From assembly GCA_951813625.1 (NCBI GenBank), contig CATOTS010000022.1:1-64000 (forward strand): 64,000 nt of DNA, written 5' to 3'. This document shows positions 20,637 through 27,993 of the stretch, in pieces. A program made the position numbers and the translations under genes. Numbering within the stretch: position 1 is the first letter of the stretch; each line of letters begins with the position of its first letter. The notes beneath the pieces are model-generated. The model ran no database searches, had not been told where the DNA came from, and saw nothing but the letters and a program-made list of their open reading frames with translations. The DNA is from an uncultured Caldilineaceae bacterium. Lineage in GTDB: Bacteria > Chloroflexota > Anaerolineae > Caldilineales > Caldilineaceae.

Positions 20637-21659
20637 TCATTCTGCCGCGACCGCTTCGCTCTGCACTGCCTGGTTCGCCTGTTCCTGCGCCTTTGTGAAA
20701 TCATTCCAGCGCAGTTGCTGGCGCCAGAAGTAGTACGCGCCCAGCAGAGTCACCGGCGCCCACAGCGCTGCATGCAGCGTAAGCGTATAGCCGGCCGCCA
20801 GCTGGGCGTCGATCCCGAACGAGACGAGCGTTTCGATTGCGGGCGTATCGAAGGTGCCGATGTAACCGGGCGCAGACGGCAACATCGTCACCAGGTTGAC
20901 GATGCCATTGGTCAGCATCAGCGCCAAGAATCTGATGCTGAAGGAAAAGGCCTGCATCACAAACCAGTATTTGACCGTCTCCAACAGCCAAACAACGATA
21001 CTTGTGGCGAAAATCATGAGCAGATCGCGACCGCTGCGCAAACTGCCCAGCCCCTCCATAAACCGCTTGTAAAGTTCATCCGTACGGACACGAATCCGAG
21101 GCGGCAGCAGATGCGCCGCAAGCCAGCCATAGAGTTTATCGAACCGTCGTGGACGGACCGTGATCCAGATGAAACCGGCCGTAACGAGCAAGAGCAGGAT
21201 GGTGGCGATAACCACTATCTGCCGAAGGGCTGACGGAATCGGCGCAAACGGCAGCGCCAAAAAGACGAACAGCAGAAGCACCAACCCGTCGAAGACGCGT
21301 TCGACAATCACAGTGGCCAGACAGGAACTGATGGAGATCCCTTCACGCTGCCGCAGGACGTAGGCGCGTATCACCTCTCCGGCGCGAAATGGGTAAACGT
21401 TGTTGCCGAAATAGCCGATGCACACGACCGGGAAAAGCTTGACCAAATCGACCCGCTTCAGGTGGCGCAGCATATAGTGCCAGCGCCAGGTACGCGCCCA
21501 CAGCCCCACCATGTAGACCGCCACCCCGGGAACGATCCACCAGTAATTGGCCTGCCCCATCGTCCGCCAGACCTCCGACAGACGAAGGCCGGGTACGACC
21601 AGGTAGAGAAAGAATAGGCTGACCAGGACTCCGATCAGCAGTTGCACTGAGCGTCTCAT
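20637..21659 (-). CDS. Lysylphosphatidylglycerol synthase TM-region family protein (UPF0104/AglD-like)
   Basis: 340 residues from the ATG at 21659, chosen for its AAGAGGAA ribosome site. Eight or nine membrane helices are visible. The stretch FPVVCIGYFGNNVYPFRAGE followed by VIRAYVLRQREGIS is the hallmark of the UPF0104/LPG_synthase_TM family. A second conserved block is MLPSAPGYIGTFDTPAIETL. These membrane proteins are thought to move or modify lipids, or to act as flippases in glycolipid pathways. No fused aminoacyl-transfer domain is present. The exact substrate is unknown. Confidence 0.85.
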   Translation of the reverse strand: MRRSVQLLIGVLVSLFFLYLVVPGLRLSEVWRTMGQANYWWIVPGVAVYMVGLWARTWRWHYMLRHLKRVDLVKLFPVVCIGYFGNNVYPFRAGEVIRAYVLRQREGISISSCLATVIVERVFDGLVLLLFVFLALPFAPIPSALRQIVVIATILLLLVTAGFIWITVRPRRFDKLYGWLAAHLLPPRIRVRTDELYKRFMEGLGSLRSGRDLLMIFATSIVVWLLETVKYWFVMQAFSFSIRFLALMLTNGIVNLVTMLPSAPGYIGTFDTPAIETLVSFGIDAQLAAGYTLTLHAALWAPVTLLGAYYFWRQQLRWNDFTKAQEQANQAVQSEAVAAE

Positions 21660-21849
21660 CCGTTCCTCTTGCCGCTTTCCCTTCAGCCTGACAATCGGAA
21701 ACAACGGCGGTGGACAATCGAACCCGCCGGCAATCCTTCAATTATTCCACATGTTTCAGGAGCGCTGAAACCGGCAAGCGCACAACAGTCCGGCCAGGTT
21801 TCTCAAAGCGGTTTCATAGGCGCGTGGCCTATACCGCTCAAGTTCAGCC

Positions 21850-21880
21850 AAAAAAAATGCCAGGCCAAAAGGCCTGGCAT
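21850..21880 (-). terminator. Rho-independent terminator of the SWIM gene
   Basis: On the minus strand a perfect 10-bp stem (ATGCCAGGCC / GGCCTGGCAT, 21857-21866 with 21871-21880) with a TTTT loop is followed by eight T residues (21850-21857). It stands 37 bases after the SWIM gene stop. Confidence 0.9.
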
Positions 21881-21916
21881 TCAGAGTTATGGCTAACTGG
21901 ACCGGCAACGCCTGGG

Positions 21917-22168
21917 CTACCCGGGAATGGGGAGCATCGCAGGCTGTACTGCCTGACCGAGAATCTCTTCCATCGCCATTACGTGGGCGCAGATGCTTCT
22001 GCGCTGAAACTCTTCGCAATCACAATCCCAGTCCCCCTGATCATAGGAGACGCGGTGATCTGAGTTCTCGCCGTGAATCTTCACCTGCAGGCTGTTGACC
22101 CACAGACGTTCATCTCGTTCGGCTGCGTACTGGCGGGCTTTGATGATACGGCTGGCAATTGCGTCCAT
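21917..22168 (-). CDS. Small SWIM zinc-finger protein
   Basis: 83 residues, starting at the ATG at 22168 behind GAAAGGAAAG. The C-terminal half carries C49-x-C51 and C60-x-H62 (CDCEEFQRRSICAH), the CxCx(n)CxH pattern of the SWIM zinc finger, used for nucleic-acid or protein binding. The N-terminal half is basic and helical. No other domain fits in this length, so it may be a stand-alone adaptor. It has its own terminator and an unusually long structured leader behind a strong promoter, so it is an independent and probably regulated unit. Confidence 0.8.
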   Translation of the reverse strand: MDAIASRIIKARQYAAERDERLWVNSLQVKIHGENSDHRVSYDQGDWDCDCEEFQRRSICAHVMAMEEILGQAVQPAMLPIPG

Positions 22169-22510: not shown

Positions 22511-22697
22511 CCGCAGTCACGCGGTTCGCGATCCGCTGCTGGCGGTGCTTCTGGCAAGAAATGTCGCGGTTTTACTCTGGAAACCGCCTACCCGCAGGCC
22601 TCGAAACAGTTCATTTGGACACGACAATGGTCATGGGCAGAATTCATACGATTTGTCTACGATTTCCGATTCTGCAGCGATCCCCTTCCGTCCAACG

Positions 22698-23084
22698 CTA
22701 TTCGACGAAGATCTCCACCAGCTCGTCCTCATCGTGCACCTCCAGGATTTTTCCTTGAAGGCCCGTGCGCAACGCGCTGCGAATCTCCTCTACGTCCAGT
22801 TCAGCCACGTCGGGTACGAACCGTGCGCCCACGGCCAGCCCCATGTTGACCAGCCCCAGGGGGATCGTCATGTTGACGCGGGTCTTGCCGCTCCTCGTAT
22901 CGGAAACACGCAGACGCAGCCAGCGCCCCTCCTCCCCCGCTTGCGCGCCGGCCTTTCTGTCCCGTCGCCGGGCCTGTCTGTCGCTCTTTTCCAACGCCGC
23001 CAGCAGGCGCGCGCCTTCATCCGCGCTGATCTTTCCTTCTTCGATCAGTTTCAATACCCTCATCCGTTCTTCGGCCGTAGGCAA
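22698..23084 (-). CDS. Small protein with N-terminal SHOCT/YvlB-LiaX-type helical hairpin
   Basis: 128 residues. The start is a TTG at 23084 with AGGAGA upstream; the in-frame ATG at 23063 would clip seven residues. Residues 4-31 (AEERMRVLKLIEEGKISADE, then ARLLAAL) are the short helical hairpin found in YvlB/LiaX-like envelope-stress proteins. The centre is strongly basic (about 34-58). The C-terminal part (VNMTIPLGLVNMGL, then a CC-free alpha/beta segment ending ELVEIFVE) resembles the C-terminal piece of YvlB-like proteins. It is last in a five-gene operon, 69 bases after the ABC permease. Confidence 0.7.
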   Translation of the reverse strand: MPTAEERMRVLKLIEEGKISADEGARLLAALEKSDRQARRRDRKAGAQAGEEGRWLRLRVSDTRSGKTRVNMTIPLGLVNMGLAVGARFVPDVAELDVEEIRSALRTGLQGKILEVHDEDELVEIFVE

Positions 23085-23153
23085 TTTACAGTTCTCCTGA
23101 ACGCTTACGAAAATGAGAGCGCTCGCATGTACGATTTCAAAACTCGACAGCCT

Positions 23154-23942
23154 CTAATACTGTCCCAGCAAGCCCCGCGTGCGCGCCATGCGTTCACTCC
23201 AGAGGAAGACAGTCCAACCCACAAGTAGAAATAGGGCCGATTGTACAGTCAGCCATACCAGGCTGCCGTCCTGCCAGACCGCCGCCAATGGCAGTCCCTC
23301 CAGGACCACCGAGCGCAACACATCGATTCCCTGGGTCGTTGGCAGGCTGCGCGCCGCGTTCTCCAACCAGCCTGGCATCCGCTCAACGGTCAGGAAAGAC
23401 CCGTTCAAAAACAGGAGCATGTTGGATAGCAGGTTGCTCAAGGCGCTTACCTGCTTGAATATGAGAGTCGCCCCGCCCAGAAGGAAGGCAAAGCCGTAAA
23501 GACCGGTGATGGTCAACGCAAAGACCGGGAGTCCCTGCAGTCGAATGGGGATGCGGATACCCAACAATAGCATCAGGATGCCCCCGACGAGCACAACGAT
23601 CGTACTGCTGATAAGCAGCGAAGCCAGCGAACGCCCGGCCAGCAGCATACCCGACGGCAGCGGACTCATGTACATCTGCTCGAGAGTGCCCGTTTGCGTC
23701 TCTTCACGGATGCCTTGGCTCATATCCGAAATCGCGAACACGGCGTAAAACCAGGTCAGATAACCCAGCAGAGCCGGCGCCATCTGCTCAGGCGCGGGGC
23801 TACCGCCGGATACAAAAAAGCTGATGCCGATGAAGAGAAATCCGATCATGAACGTTTCCAGCAGAAAGTTGAAACGATAGGACCAGACGACGATGACTCT
23901 TTTGTAACATTCGTTCAGCAGCACAGTTCCTGCCAATACCAT
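23154..23942 (-). CDS. ABC-2 type permease of the envelope operon
   Basis: 262 residues with six membrane helices, the compact ABC-2 permease (PF01061-like) layout without a large external domain. A segment typical of the family (EETQTGTLEQMYMSPLP) follows helix 2. It starts five bases after the stop of the ATPase gene, so the two are coupled. It probably forms a homodimeric exporter with the 23947-24984 ATPase. The setting with LiaX/YvlB-like proteins suggests a role in envelope stress or resistance to membrane-active agents. Confidence 0.88.
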   Translation of the reverse strand: MVLAGTVLLNECYKRVIVVWSYRFNFLLETFMIGFLFIGISFFVSGGSPAPEQMAPALLGYLTWFYAVFAISDMSQGIREETQTGTLEQMYMSPLPSGMLLAGRSLASLLISSTIVVLVGGILMLLLGIRIPIRLQGLPVFALTITGLYGFAFLLGGATLIFKQVSALSNLLSNMLLFLNGSFLTVERMPGWLENAARSLPTTQGIDVLRSVVLEGLPLAAVWQDGSLVWLTVQSALFLLVGWTVFLWSERMARTRGLLGQY

Positions 23943-23946
23943 TGCC

Positions 23947-24984
23947 TTACCTTGTGGTTTCGCTTACGGCGCGCGCCTGGCCCGCTTGTGGCTCTTTAGC
24001 GTCGGCCGGCGGCTGCTCGGCCCGCCCCACCAGCTCGATGAATACCTCCTCCAGGTTCGGTTCAGCCGGGGAAACGCTGATCAGATCCAGGCCCGCCAGC
24101 CGCGCCCGTTCAACTAGGTCAAAGACTGAATCCTCAGGCCCAACCTCTCCGGACAGGACCGTGTGACCGTTCTCCTGGCATGCAGCGAAGCCGGGGAAGG
24201 CCTCGATCTTCTCCGCAGCAATGATCCCGCGCAGCCGCAATTGGTAGAACTCCCGCCGGAACAGGTCGAGCAACTCTCCGGTGGGACGGTGCGTCAGCAA
24301 CCGCCCCCGGCTCATGATCGCAACGCGGTCGCACAGACTCTCAGCCATGTCCAGCTGATGCGTCGTCAGCACCACGGTCTTGCCCCGCTCCTTCGCCAGC
24401 CGGGTTACCCACTCCTGCACGGTGCGCGATGCCTGCACATCCAACCCCAGCGTCGGCTCGTCCAACAGCACGATTGGCGGGTCCGCGATGAGCGCCGCTG
24501 CAATCGCCACCTTTTGCTGCATGCCGCGGCTGTATTCGCCCACAGGATCTTTGCGCCGTTCCCACAAATCCAGTTCGCGTAGCAGTTTCTCTGCCCTGGC
24601 TTTCAGCCATTTGCTGGACGAGACACCCTTGATGCGCCCGAAGTAGAGCAGATTCTGCCACGCGTTCATACGCCAATAAACGTTGCGCGTGCCTTCCAGC
24701 ACCGCGCCGATCTGCTGCATGGCCCGGCCGCGCTGCGTACGCACATCATAGCCGTTGAGGCGAACGGTTCCGGTGGTGGGGATGACCAGCCCGCAAGCCA
24801 TCTTCAGCGTCGTCGTCTTGCCGGCCCCGTTCGAGCCCAAAAAGCCGAATACCTGGCCCGCTTCTACCGCAAGATCGAGCCTGTTTACCGCCGAAATCTC
24901 ATCCCCACTGCGGCGGCGAAAGACCTTGCTCAGCGACTCGATTTCGATGGCTGCAGACCGCCTTCGGTCTTTCGAAGTCGTCAT
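23947..24984 (-). CDS. ABC transporter ATP-binding protein of the envelope operon
   Basis: 345 residues from the ATG at 24984; earlier ATGs at 25029 and 25065 are possible. Walker A is GSNGAGKT (about 50-57), the signature is YSRGMQQK, and Walker B is PPIVLLDEPTLGLD. The C-terminal extension of about 90 residues is typical of DrrA/NatA-type export ATPases. It sits between the large LiaX-like gene and the permease. Confidence 0.92.
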   Translation of the reverse strand: MTTSKDRRRSAAIEIESLSKVFRRRSGDEISAVNRLDLAVEAGQVFGFLGSNGAGKTTTLKMACGLVIPTTGTVRLNGYDVRTQRGRAMQQIGAVLEGTRNVYWRMNAWQNLLYFGRIKGVSSSKWLKARAEKLLRELDLWERRKDPVGEYSRGMQQKVAIAAALIADPPIVLLDEPTLGLDVQASRTVQEWVTRLAKERGKTVVLTTHQLDMAESLCDRVAIMSRGRLLTHRPTGELLDLFRREFYQLRLRGIIAAEKIEAFPGFAACQENGHTVLSGEVGPEDSVFDLVERARLAGLDLISVSPAEPNLEEVFIELVGRAEQPPADAKEPQAGQARAVSETTR

Positions 24985-25073
24985 TCTGCTTTCCAATTTG
25001 GGCGCACCCTGGCGCCAGTCACTCTTCATGGCCGCTTCTGTCCACGAACGGTCGTAGCAGTTCAAGCGGCGTC

Positions 25074-26609
25074 TTATGCCTGGTCCCGGCTGCCCAGGGC
25101 ATCCAACAGCTGCTCGGCCTCGACAGCCGTGATCTTGCCCTCCGACAACATCCGCAAAACAGTGAGCCGCTCCTCTTCGGTGACCGGCTCACCGTCATCT
25201 TCGCTCTCCGCATCGACGTCAAAGTCAATTTCAACATCCAGGTCCATGTCCACTTCTACGTCGTCGAATTCGGATCGAGCCGGCCCGTCACGCCTAGCAG
25301 CGCCGGACGCAGTCTCATCCGTGTCAAAACTGAAGCTCCAGCTGCGGGCATCGCCCCAATCCCCGTCGGCCGCCCTCTTGCTCGCGGCGCGCAGTTTCCT
25401 CCGCAGCTTTCTGCCCAGGGACCGGGAGATGTGCCGTTGCGCGCGCGCGGCGATCCGTGCGCCCCTGACGCCCACTTCTTCGCCAAGACCTTTCAGAATT
25501 GCGGCGGACTCGAGTTGCACGCTGCCTCCGGCAACCAGCGAATAGCTGCTCTTCCCCGCGCCGACGCGGAACGAATGCACGCCCGGCCCGCGCGCGACCA
25601 ACGTGGGGCCGCCTTCGACCGTGAGCGAACCGCCGCAGACCGCCTTGAAAGAGCCTCCTTCCGTTTCAGCCAAACGGCAGCGTATGTCGTCCCCTGCAGT
25701 CAGGCGCACGTTTCCGGTAATCGTGGACAGCTGAACGCTGCCGCCGCACTTGGCCGAGAGCGAGCCGCCGCACCCATCAACCACCAGGTCGCCGCCCACG
25801 CCGCCCAGCGAAACCGAGCCCCCTACTTGGTGGAGCGTCCCGCTTCCGTTAACCTTCTTACAGGCGAACGCGCCGCGAACGCTTTCGGCGGTCAGATCGC
25901 CCATGACCCGCCTCACAGCAACCTCTCCCACCTCACCCAGATTCAGTGTCCCGTCGACCTGGTTGCACGCGACTTTTCCCCGCACACCGCGCAGGGATAC
26001 GTTGCCCAGCGCCTTGCCGATGGCCGCGGCGCCGTCAACGTTGATCAGTTCGACGGCGCCGTCTGCCCTCTCGATAACGACGTTCCCGCCTGCATTCAGC
26101 ACGTCGACGTCGGCGCGCGCCAGCGCTACCCGTACGGCGGACACGTTCTGCAGAGTCAACCGCCCGGCAACCTCGGAGATCGAGATCTCCCCGCCGATTT
26201 GCTCAGCCGACAGATCGGCCTGCGCGCGCCGATTCACCTCTACCTCGCCGGCGATGTTTGCCAGGTTCACCCGGCCTGCAGCGTTTTCGATCGTCACCCT
26301 GCCGGCATCCTCTACCAGCAGGTCGCCGCCAGCCTTTGCAAGCTCCACGCCGCCGTGCAGATTGCTTACTATCACCTGTCCTTCCGCCGCGATCCCCACC
26401 ACTTCAACCGTCTGCGGCAGCCTCACCGTACATGAAGAATCAGCCTCGATTTCGATCTGTTCCGGCACAGCGTCTACCACCGGCCGACTTCCCTGGCCGT
26501 CCACCTCAATCAGCGCCTCTTCCCAACCCTCAACGCGCAGGTCTCCTGCGCAGCGTATACGCACGCGCCGGTTCGGAGACTCCAGTTCCACCTGAATCTG
26601 TTCACTCAT
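25074..26609 (-). CDS. DUF4097-like beta-helix protein with C-terminal SHOCT-type hairpin (LiaX/YvlB-like)
   Basis: 511 residues. Residues about 50-360 are repeated short strands with Gly/Val patterns (…GGVELAKAGGDLLVEDAGRV…), as in DUF4097/adhesin-like right-handed beta solenoids. Residues about 390-415 are strongly basic (LGRKLRRKLRAASKRAA). About 440-475 is very acidic (DDVEVDMDLDVEIDFDVDAE). Residues 477-505 (EERLTVLRMLSEGKITAVEA, then EQLLDAL) are the YvlB/LiaX-type helical hairpin. No signal peptide is seen. The same hairpin occurs in the first and last proteins of this operon. A role as an envelope-stress sensor or scaffold for the ABC exporter is inferred from context. Confidence 0.75.
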   Translation of the reverse strand: MSEQIQVELESPNRRVRIRCAGDLRVEGWEEALIEVDGQGSRPVVDAVPEQIEIEADSSCTVRLPQTVEVVGIAAEGQVIVSNLHGGVELAKAGGDLLVEDAGRVTIENAAGRVNLANIAGEVEVNRRAQADLSAEQIGGEISISEVAGRLTLQNVSAVRVALARADVDVLNAGGNVVIERADGAVELINVDGAAAIGKALGNVSLRGVRGKVACNQVDGTLNLGEVGEVAVRRVMGDLTAESVRGAFACKKVNGSGTLHQVGGSVSLGGVGGDLVVDGCGGSLSAKCGGSVQLSTITGNVRLTAGDDIRCRLAETEGGSFKAVCGGSLTVEGGPTLVARGPGVHSFRVGAGKSSYSLVAGGSVQLESAAILKGLGEEVGVRGARIAARAQRHISRSLGRKLRRKLRAASKRAADGDWGDARSWSFSFDTDETASGAARRDGPARSEFDDVEVDMDLDVEIDFDVDAESEDDGEPVTEEERLTVLRMLSEGKITAVEAEQLLDALGSRDQA

Positions 26610-26662
26610 TTCGCTCCCCTTGCATGTCTCCGCATGTCCCCGACTCGTGAGGTGCGGAGCTT

Positions 26663-27046
26663 CTATTCGCTCTGCAACTGCTCCATCGCCGCCTCATAGC
26701 TGATTTCGCCGGCCTCAAGTTGCTCAAGTATCTGACGCCGCGCCTTCTCCTCCATTGCCGGGGGCTCGTCGCGGCCCGGCTCGTATCCCATGGCTCGAAT
26801 AACCTCGCGCAACCGCCCCCGCAGCGTAGGGTAGGAGAGAGCCAACTCCTCCTCCATCCGGTTCAGCTTGCCCTCGCAGCGCACGAAGGTCGCCGCAAAC
26901 GCAAGCTGCTCCCGCGTCAGCCCTGCGAACGGCGTTTCAACCACGAAGCGCCCCTCGACCCGGCTGTCGCATTCACGGCAAAAGAAGCCGGTGACGGTCA
27001 AATCTTTCCCCTGGCAGATCGGGCAGGCAGTGGGTAAAGGATTCAT
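26663..27046 (-). CDS. DUF2089 protein: zinc ribbon, HTH-like core and C-terminal hairpin
   Basis: 127 residues. An N-terminal zinc ribbon has C8-x2-C11 and C23-x2-C26. The middle is the DUF2089 core (LTREQLAFAATFVRCEGKLN, then ALSYPTLRGRLREVIRAMGY), which reads like a sigma-region-4/HTH fold and may bind DNA. Residues 103-125 (RRQILEQLEAGEISYEAAME) are the same helical hairpin as in the two YvlB/LiaX-like proteins of the operon. It is the first gene, behind AAGGAGG, and is the likely regulator of the operon; that is inference. Confidence 0.85.
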   Translation of the reverse strand: MNPLPTACPICQGKDLTVTGFFCRECDSRVEGRFVVETPFAGLTREQLAFAATFVRCEGKLNRMEEELALSYPTLRGRLREVIRAMGYEPGRDEPPAMEEKARRQILEQLEAGEISYEAAMEQLQSE

Positions 27047-27335
27047 GCAGCCTCCTTCCTCAGGCTATGGTCTCTATGGCCGGTCCGGAGCAATCGTCCT
27101 TCCTCTCGTTGTCTATGTTGTTGAAGAGCGGTTCTCCTTGCCATCGGCCGCTTTCCTGAATGTGAGAACGACTGTGCGCGCCAGCGCGGCCCCTGCCGGG
27201 AATGGCGCCCCCGAAGATTGTTCTGCTCAACCGTGTTCGATTCCTCCCCTCGCAGCGCCTCTTCTATACTCATTCGCCACAGAAACATTCTTGAAAACCT
27301 TTAATATTTTGAAATCTCATCACATAATATTCAAC

Positions 27336-27364
27336 ACTATAAGTCAAATGTGTAAATTTGTCAA
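27336..27364 (-). promoter_or_regulatory. Strong sigma-70-type promoter of the DUF2089/LiaX operon
   Basis: On the minus strand TTGACA (27359-27364), a 17-base spacer and TATAGT (27336-27341), in an AT-rich patch. The predicted leader before DUF2089 is about 280 bases. It contains an 81-codon open frame (27043-27288) whose TGA overlaps the DUF2089 ATG. Confidence 0.7.
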
Positions 27365-27511: not shown

Positions 27512-27735
27512 CGGCCCTCCCTTGTGCGGGGGGACTCCCCCCGCAACGCCCCCCTGACACCCCTCCACCCGCCGGTTGTGGGTTCTAATGTAGCCCTGCG
27601 AGGCCAGCGGCCCGTCGCCCCCGCCACCGTGCCTGCGCGATTCCATCGTGTCGCCAACGCGCCGCGTGCCTACACGGCCGTGTGTGCGCGTCCCCCTCCA
27701 CTCGCGCGCTCGACCGCCAGGTGCCTCCCCCCGCA
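27512..27735. repeat. 224-bp direct repeat, copy 1
   Basis: It is repeated 258 bases downstream with only about four differences. It includes a perfect GC hairpin, TGCGGGGGG-ACT-CCCCCCGCA, at 27525-27545. A shorter third copy of the hairpin end is at 59872-59925. Confidence 0.9.
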
Positions 27736-27769: not shown

Positions 27770-27993
27770 CGGCCCTCCCTTGTGCGGGGGGACTCCCCCC
27801 GCAACGCCCCCCTGACACCCCTCCACCCGCCGGTTGTGGGTTCTAATGTAGCCCTGCGAGGCCAGCGGCCCGTCGCCCCCGCCACCGTGCCTGCGCGATT
27901 CCATCGTGTCGCCAACGCGCCGCGTGCCTACACGGCCGTATGTACGCGTCCCCCGCCACTCGCGCGCTCGACCGCCAGGCGCCTCCCCCCGCA
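27770..27993. repeat. 224-bp direct repeat, copy 2
   Basis: Second copy, with its hairpin at 27783-27803. The few differences lie in the last 50 bases. The 34 bases between the copies are not repeated. Confidence 0.9.

Follow-up and report, generated by a model that had tools for sequence, protein, structure and literature searches.

A DUF2089-Toastrack operon of a Caldilineaceae bacterium with a shared SHOCT-like hairpin and an ABC-2 exporter

We analysed 64,000 nucleotides (nt) of DNA from an uncultured Caldilineaceae bacterium (assembly GCA_951813625.1, contig CATOTS010000022.1, positions 1 to 64,000; hereafter the window). A minus-strand block at 22698-27364 forms a compact operon, in which a promoter is followed by an 81-codon gene and by the genes for a DUF2089 protein, a 511-amino acid (aa) beta-solenoid protein, an ATP-binding cassette (ABC) ATPase, an ABC-2 permease and a 128-aa protein (Table 1). 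One catalogued Pfam domain, PF22746 (SHOCT-like_DUF2089-C), is common to the 128-aa, 511-aa and DUF2089 proteins. The feature is real, conserved and interpretable, and the operon appears to be one variant of a family of putative membrane-stress systems that was described recently.

One SHOCT-like hairpin on three operon proteins

A search of the whole genome (5.4 Mb) with PF22746, for which the curated cut-off is 27 bits, returned exactly three matches at E ≤ 1, all of them in the operon. They fall, to within a few residues, on the segments that a first-pass annotation, made from the letters alone, had marked as one helical module. Its picture of one module shared by a putative regulator, a small protein and a large beta solenoid (of the Toastrack fold), the three flanking an ABC-2 exporter, is borne out. 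The sequence motif it printed picks the right segments but is not literal, as the 128-aa protein has 'EG' for 'EA', and DUF2089 has 'AA' for 'EA' and 'QL' for 'LL'.

Family profiles were built separately from 16 DUF2089, 57 128-aa and 60 511-aa sequences. Profile-profile alignment, one of the checks by which the first-pass annotation had wanted its claim judged, brought all pairs together at the hairpins: DUF2089 with the 128-aa protein (94.6%, E = 6.9e-8), DUF2089 with the 511-aa protein (95.3%, E = 2.1e-8) and the 128-aa with the 511-aa protein (98.0%, E = 1.7e-13). Raw pairwise comparison was decisive for the last pair only (Smith-Waterman score 78, reached by 0 of 2000 shuffles) and was rejected as proof of three-way kinship, the two comparisons with the DUF2089 hairpin being weak (scores reached by 170/2000 and 28/2000 shuffles). 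PF22746 matched all 60 relatives of the 511-aa protein and all 57 of the 128-aa protein, partly by construction since both sets were chosen for the hairpin. By role, the hairpin consensus is close to xEERxxILxMIxEGKISAEEAxxLLxAL. Searching the PDB by sequence with the three hairpin proteins gave nothing of note.

The predicted structure of the 511-aa protein combines a solenoid, mostly at a predicted local distance difference test score (pLDDT) above 90, with a helix at residues 382-414, a disordered stretch at 416-472 (pLDDT < 50) and a helix-turn-helix hairpin (478-489/495-510). All five invariant columns in the alignment of 60 sequences (E480, R481, L485, A498 and L501) lie inside this hairpin. 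Residues 380-415 contain 13 K/R against 1 D/E; their hydrophobic moment is 0.68-0.78, and the region is net positive in 58/60 relatives; residues 416-477 hold 22 D/E and 4 K/R. When the model was compared with known structures by VIA-align, it scored, in alignments from residue 1, Z 14.9 to 3lyc, Z 13.4 to 4opw (root-mean-square deviation 3.4, 201 residues aligned) and Z 10.6 to 4qrk (2.6, 142 aligned). The last two are structures named for Toastrack (DUF4097/DUF2154/DUF2807) by Ravi et al. 2024 (PMC11237479). The predicted model thus has the right-handed beta-helix fold of 4QRK and 4OPW, which shows the fold class but by itself not descent. Since other beta-helices score in VIA-align as well (the unrelated 3p4g reaches Z 14.6), Toastrack descent rests also on matches of the relatives to Pfam DUF4097 (PF13349), found in 27 of 60 at E ≤ 0.1 (best 3.4e-15). 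The window copy itself stays below the cut-off of that model (14.7 against 22.9 bits, E = 0.02). Neither a signal peptide nor a transmembrane (TM) segment was seen in the 511-aa protein; it is most likely cytoplasmic and, we infer, membrane-proximal, so that the label 'envelope' given to the beta solenoid at first pass is misleading.

The 128-aa gene starts with TTG and has AGGAG upstream. In its predicted structure, a helix-turn-helix hairpin (residues 4-15/21-41) precedes a small alpha/beta domain. Foldseek found no match to the protein in the PDB at E ≤ 0.001, and the best VIA score for the C-terminal domain was about Z 3.9. These absent matches were not counted as evidence for a new fold. 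A membrane paralogue found in related operons, about 210 residues long, combines the hairpin and the C-terminal domain of the 128-aa protein with two hydrophobic helices.

The DUF2089 protein matches PF09862 and PF22747 above their cut-offs and carries four cysteines in a CPIC...CREC arrangement. This genome holds a single DUF2089 gene, the family occurs in 160 of 251 sampled Chloroflexota genomes, and we found no tested function for DUF2089 in the literature. In several sister genomes (L067, L083, L086, L089, L090 and others) DUF2089 occurs a second time, as a more divergent gene; the protein encoded after it has a SHOCT-like hairpin at its N-terminus and otherwise matches no Pfam domain above cut-off. 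In some Caldilineaceae genera (L038, L041, L042, L052) the zinc-ribbon cysteines are partly lost (e.g. TSPFDGG...YCPGSD) while the helix-turn-helix (HTH) and hairpin remain, which suggests that zinc binding is not needed there.

Table 1. Features of the operon and their coordinates in the window.
Feature	Position	Strand	Basis
128-aa protein: N-terminal SHOCT-like hairpin and beta-beta-alpha-alpha-alpha-beta-beta domain ('SCT')	22698..23084	-	AlphaFold, pLDDT 81
Hairpin of 128-aa protein (residues 5-34)	22983..23072	-	PF22746, 45.3 bits
ABC-2 permease	23154..23942	-	PF01061, 46.5 bits; PF12698, 36.2 bits
ABC ATPase, DrrA-like	23947..25065	-	PF00005, 103 bits; true start possibly an internal ATG
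511-aa Toastrack-fold beta-solenoid protein with C-terminal hairpin	25074..26609	-	AlphaFold, pLDDT 83.6, strands 2-368
Hairpin of 511-aa protein (residues 479-509)	25083..25175	-	PF22746, 30.8 bits
Disordered acidic linker of 511-aa protein (residues 416-472)	25194..25364	-	pLDDT < 50
Basic amphipathic helix of 511-aa protein (residues 382-414)	25368..25466	-	AlphaFold
DUF2089 protein, 127 aa: zinc ribbon, HTH and C-terminal SHOCT-like hairpin	26663..27046	-	PF09862, 67.4 bits; PF22747, 29.5 bits
Hairpin of DUF2089 protein (residues 103-124)	26675..26740	-	PF22746, 21.3 bits, under cut-off, E 1.9e-4
Leading 81-codon gene (U)	27043..27288	-	Open reading frame conserved across sister loci
Sigma-70-type promoter TTGACA-17-TATAGT	27336..27364	-	11/12 consensus matches
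Terminator-like hairpin (weak)	22566..22587	-	7 pairs, loop 8, about 110 nt past the last stop codon

Gene order in relatives and the surroundings of the operon

We collected 157 non-redundant Chloroflexota DUF2089 loci and labelled their genes with profiles built in this analysis (D, DUF2089; H, solenoid; M, membrane paralogue; A and P, ABC ATPase and permease; S, 128-aa protein). The commonest arrays were D-H-M-S (29 loci), D alone (29, among them contig ends and a divergent DUF2089 type), D-H-A-P-S (26) and D-H (22), followed by D-S (11), D-H-S (11) and D-S-H (9). The order of the window, D-H-A-P-S, is therefore kept in relatives, as the first-pass annotation had expected. The hairpin was present in 147/157 DUF2089 proteins, 113/126 solenoids, 96/101 small proteins and all 39 membrane paralogues, and four hairpin-tagged proteins form the core of the gene group. 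Among 61 related genomes, DUF2089 and PF22746 were both present in 47, both absent in 10 and found singly in 4 (Fisher p = 4e-8), and of the 136 PF22746 matches 115 were inside a DUF2089 gene or no more than 10 kb away from one. In two sister genomes an isolated frame of 119 codons matches PF22746 strongly (37.8 bits) at a great distance from all DUF2089 genes (L185:7054-7410 and L186:7210-7566).

Across the 157 loci the ABC pair occupies the slot of the membrane paralogue, and the two occur together in one locus only (L136). Because of this position, Caldilineaceae appear to have exchanged a membrane-anchored hairpin protein for an ABC-2 exporter. In a quick tree of the ATPases, with several open forks, the window's copy groups with other Caldilineaceae and L139, and those of L188, L191 and L078, three loci with a different gene order, form a group apart; L188 and L191 have the order D-H-S-A-P-P. 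The separate groups suggest that ABC genes probably joined such operons at least twice. By its domains the exporter is of ABC-2 type, with its substrate unassigned. It falls below the DrrAB-type subfamily models (TIGR01188 drrA, 236.6 against a cut-off of 312.45; TIGR01247, 17.7 against 223). Homologues of the permease outside the family were found at E ≤ 1e-20 in 3 other genomes of the 251, none of them sharing a contig with a DUF2089 gene.

The five genes of the first-pass annotation lie on the minus strand where it had placed them, and its inventory overlooked the leading gene, U. The promoter it had reported is present about 290 nt 5' of DUF2089 and 48 nt 5' of gene U. An alignment with 14 sister loci shows it to be conserved, with TTGAC and the first TAT of the -10 element invariant. 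In all 15 aligned loci (the window and its 14 sisters) the stop codon of gene U overlaps the DUF2089 start (ATGA), and in 13 of them (the window and 12 sisters) the gene is 81 codons long. Differences fall mostly at third codon positions (1860/1573/2934) and, among single changes, 1750 are synonymous and 990 non-synonymous; gene U is therefore read as coding. Pfam had no match to its protein above cut-off, and weaker homologues head other ABC-bearing Caldilineaceae operons. We also considered this protein as a fourth hairpin carrier and ruled it out (hhalign probability 1%). Sister copies contain an amphipathic stretch rich in W and R, much of which the window copy has lost; gene U as a whole is well conserved in the sisters, and this segment has diverged here as if under relaxed constraint.

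The scan that gave the terminator-like hairpin was overall not above shuffled sequence (6 found, mean 4.1). Beyond the 3' end of the operon, the window encodes a flippase-like membrane protein and an 83-aa SWIM-like protein (20637-22168), both kept there in nearly all sister loci. Just upstream of the promoter lies a 224-nt direct repeat in two copies that are 98% identical (27512-27735 and 27770-27993). It belongs to a dispersed family with 68 matches in the genome, most of the full-length ones being 84-91% identical, and its members are often paired 250-290 nt apart.

Comparison with described systems

The closest described system is the DUF2089-Toastrack context of Ravi et al. 2024, mSystems (PMC11237479). 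The available text of that paper defines SHOCT-like domains as terminal parts of Toastrack proteins, divides DUF2089 into zinc ribbon, HTH and SHOCT-like parts, and describes a PspA-free four-gene Toastrack context across bacteria. It also predicts that the SHOCT-like domain anchors proteins at the inner leaflet of the membrane and proposes Toastrack as a sub-membrane signalling platform. The window operon belongs to this context as described there, for it encodes together a DUF2089 protein of the same three parts, a Toastrack protein and SHOCT-like partners. Set against that text, it differs in its ABC-2 ATPase and permease, which stand where many other Anaerolineae have a SHOCT-like paralogue with two TM helices, and in its extra leading 81-codon gene. 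The main text of Ravi et al. also describes other Toastrack-ABC operons, whose regulators are GntR or ribbon-helix-helix (RHH) proteins, whereas the window operon has DUF2089. The SHOCT-like tag, the DUF2089 architecture and the four-gene context were thus known already, and comparative genomics had largely anticipated the operon; the new element, a modest one, is a DUF2089-Toastrack core with an ABC-2 exporter replacing the membrane paralogue.

At first pass the operon had been likened to a LiaX/YvlB-like envelope-stress system 'of a different build'. The resemblance stands: LiaX of Enterococcus and YvlB of Bacillus subtilis also join a SHOCT-like hairpin to a Toastrack or beta-rich domain and have a proposed role in membrane stress, and in the enterococci that have LiaX its C-terminal part holds the LiaFSR response in check (PMC11601895). 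Membership did not hold up. The window's hairpin is C-terminal on the solenoid and is repeated on the regulator and the small protein, and a Pfam search of the operon proteins found no LiaFSR, PspC or holin-like partner. The NCBIfam LiaX model NF038025 scored 13.4 bits against a cut-off of 350, over residues 5-45 of the 128-aa protein only. With the classical Psp response (PspA/PspBC) the operon shares only the idea of membrane-linked signalling, and membership of that system failed as well on the lack of a PspA match in the genome.

In two bacteriocin clusters, bawcin and enterocin DD14, the annotation likewise puts a DUF2089-family gene next to ABC exporter genes (PMC10707071, PMC7332713). 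The DUF2089 proteins given there are short (98 and 89 aa), the exporters have an HlyD or periplasmic-type partner, and the quoted tables of these papers list no Toastrack protein.

A proposed working of the operon and its alternatives

From directly established features (the shared domain, the protein architectures, the predicted folds, the conserved order, the positional exchange and the conserved promoter) we propose that the operon products form a signalling and scaffold module of Toastrack, SHOCT-like and DUF2089 proteins, located in the cytoplasm close to the membrane and joined to an ABC-2 exporter. We give this reading as a whole an even chance of being right. The SHOCT-like hairpins would be shared docking tags through which the operon proteins contact one another. 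The Toastrack solenoid, which has a basic amphipathic helix beside its own hairpin, would be the assembly platform under the membrane; the DUF2089 protein, with zinc ribbon and HTH, would be the output that binds DNA or RNA polymerase; and the 128-aa protein would be an adaptor. The anchor of the complex in many Anaerolineae would be an adaptor paralogue with two TM helices, and in Caldilineaceae the ABC-2 exporter would take its place. The state of the membrane or of the exporter (a load of drug, peptide or lipid) would alter the sub-membrane assembly, and DUF2089 would be freed or sequestered, adjusting transcription of its own operon. A one-tag complex may also be envisaged, with the hairpin as the common plug for the regulator, the Toastrack scaffold, the soluble adaptor and an exchangeable membrane module (two-helix anchor in many Anaerolineae, ABC-2 exporter in Caldilineaceae), by which exporter state would be read as transcription without a histidine kinase; we offer it tentatively and think it rather unlikely.

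Several observations weigh against such a module, and the hetero-oligomerisation suggested at first pass found no support here. At positions 11 and 25, where the other three roles conserve hydrophobic residues, the DUF2089 hairpin has none, and it may therefore dock differently. Hairpins of the solenoid and the 128-aa protein are scarcely more similar within operons than between them (0.560 and 0.541), a tiny excess that is confounded by relatedness and is absent for the pair of DUF2089 and the 128-aa protein. Exclusion between the ABC genes and the membrane paralogue (Fisher p = 9e-4) is confounded by phylogeny, and several Caldilineaceae loci show neither. No PspA (PF04012) was found in the genome, which is 96% complete, and its two PspC matches lie in one frame on contig C1, a contig other than that of the operon. 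Our literature search found no experiment on any member of such a build. In the only published test, by Eberhardt et al. 2013 (PMC3581485), a canonical SHOCT domain did not self-oligomerise, and localisation or the binding of other partners was proposed.

This last result also favours the main rival, in which the hairpin would be a localisation tag only, bringing each protein separately to the inner leaflet or to a common third protein, without hetero-oligomerisation. The inner-leaflet anchoring predicted by Ravi et al. and the lack of a specific covariation signal among the hairpins of one operon point the same way. However, every membrane paralogue retains the hairpin, in which a pure membrane tag would be redundant because the protein has TM helices of its own, and the hairpin is largely confined to the proteins of one operon; we regard a localisation tag as possible, though doubtful. 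Convergence on a short, low-information helix-turn-helix, with an incidental association in the operon, would be in keeping with how little information a 28-residue helical hairpin holds and with the DUF2089 copy, below the Pfam cut-off and weak in pairwise tests. It is close to refuted by profile-profile E-values of 7e-8 to 2e-13, by the confinement of the genome's three matches to one operon and by the keeping of the hairpin across about 150 operons.

The exporter may instead be the effector of self-protection or export (of an antimicrobial peptide, an antibiotic or a lipid), with DUF2089 and Toastrack as its local regulator and no general role in envelope stress. Its ATPase and permease do resemble drug-resistance exporters, although below the cut-offs of the drrA/drrB models; such operons acquired ABC genes of at least two lineages; and the bacteriocin clusters offer a parallel. 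Yet the exporter is absent from 126 of the 157 DUF2089 loci, so export is not the core function of the module. No biosynthetic genes were noted beside the operon, and the bacteriocin transporters are of another type, with HlyD partners. We consider self-protection distinctly unlikely.

In the signalling and scaffold reading, the operon is a compact and testable case, in which the shared hairpin predicts contacts among a putative regulator, a scaffold and a small adaptor. That an exporter naturally stands in for the membrane anchor hints at the point where membrane input enters. The SHOCT-like tag would thereby gain a concrete, testable role, a question that dates from the naming of SHOCT in 2013.

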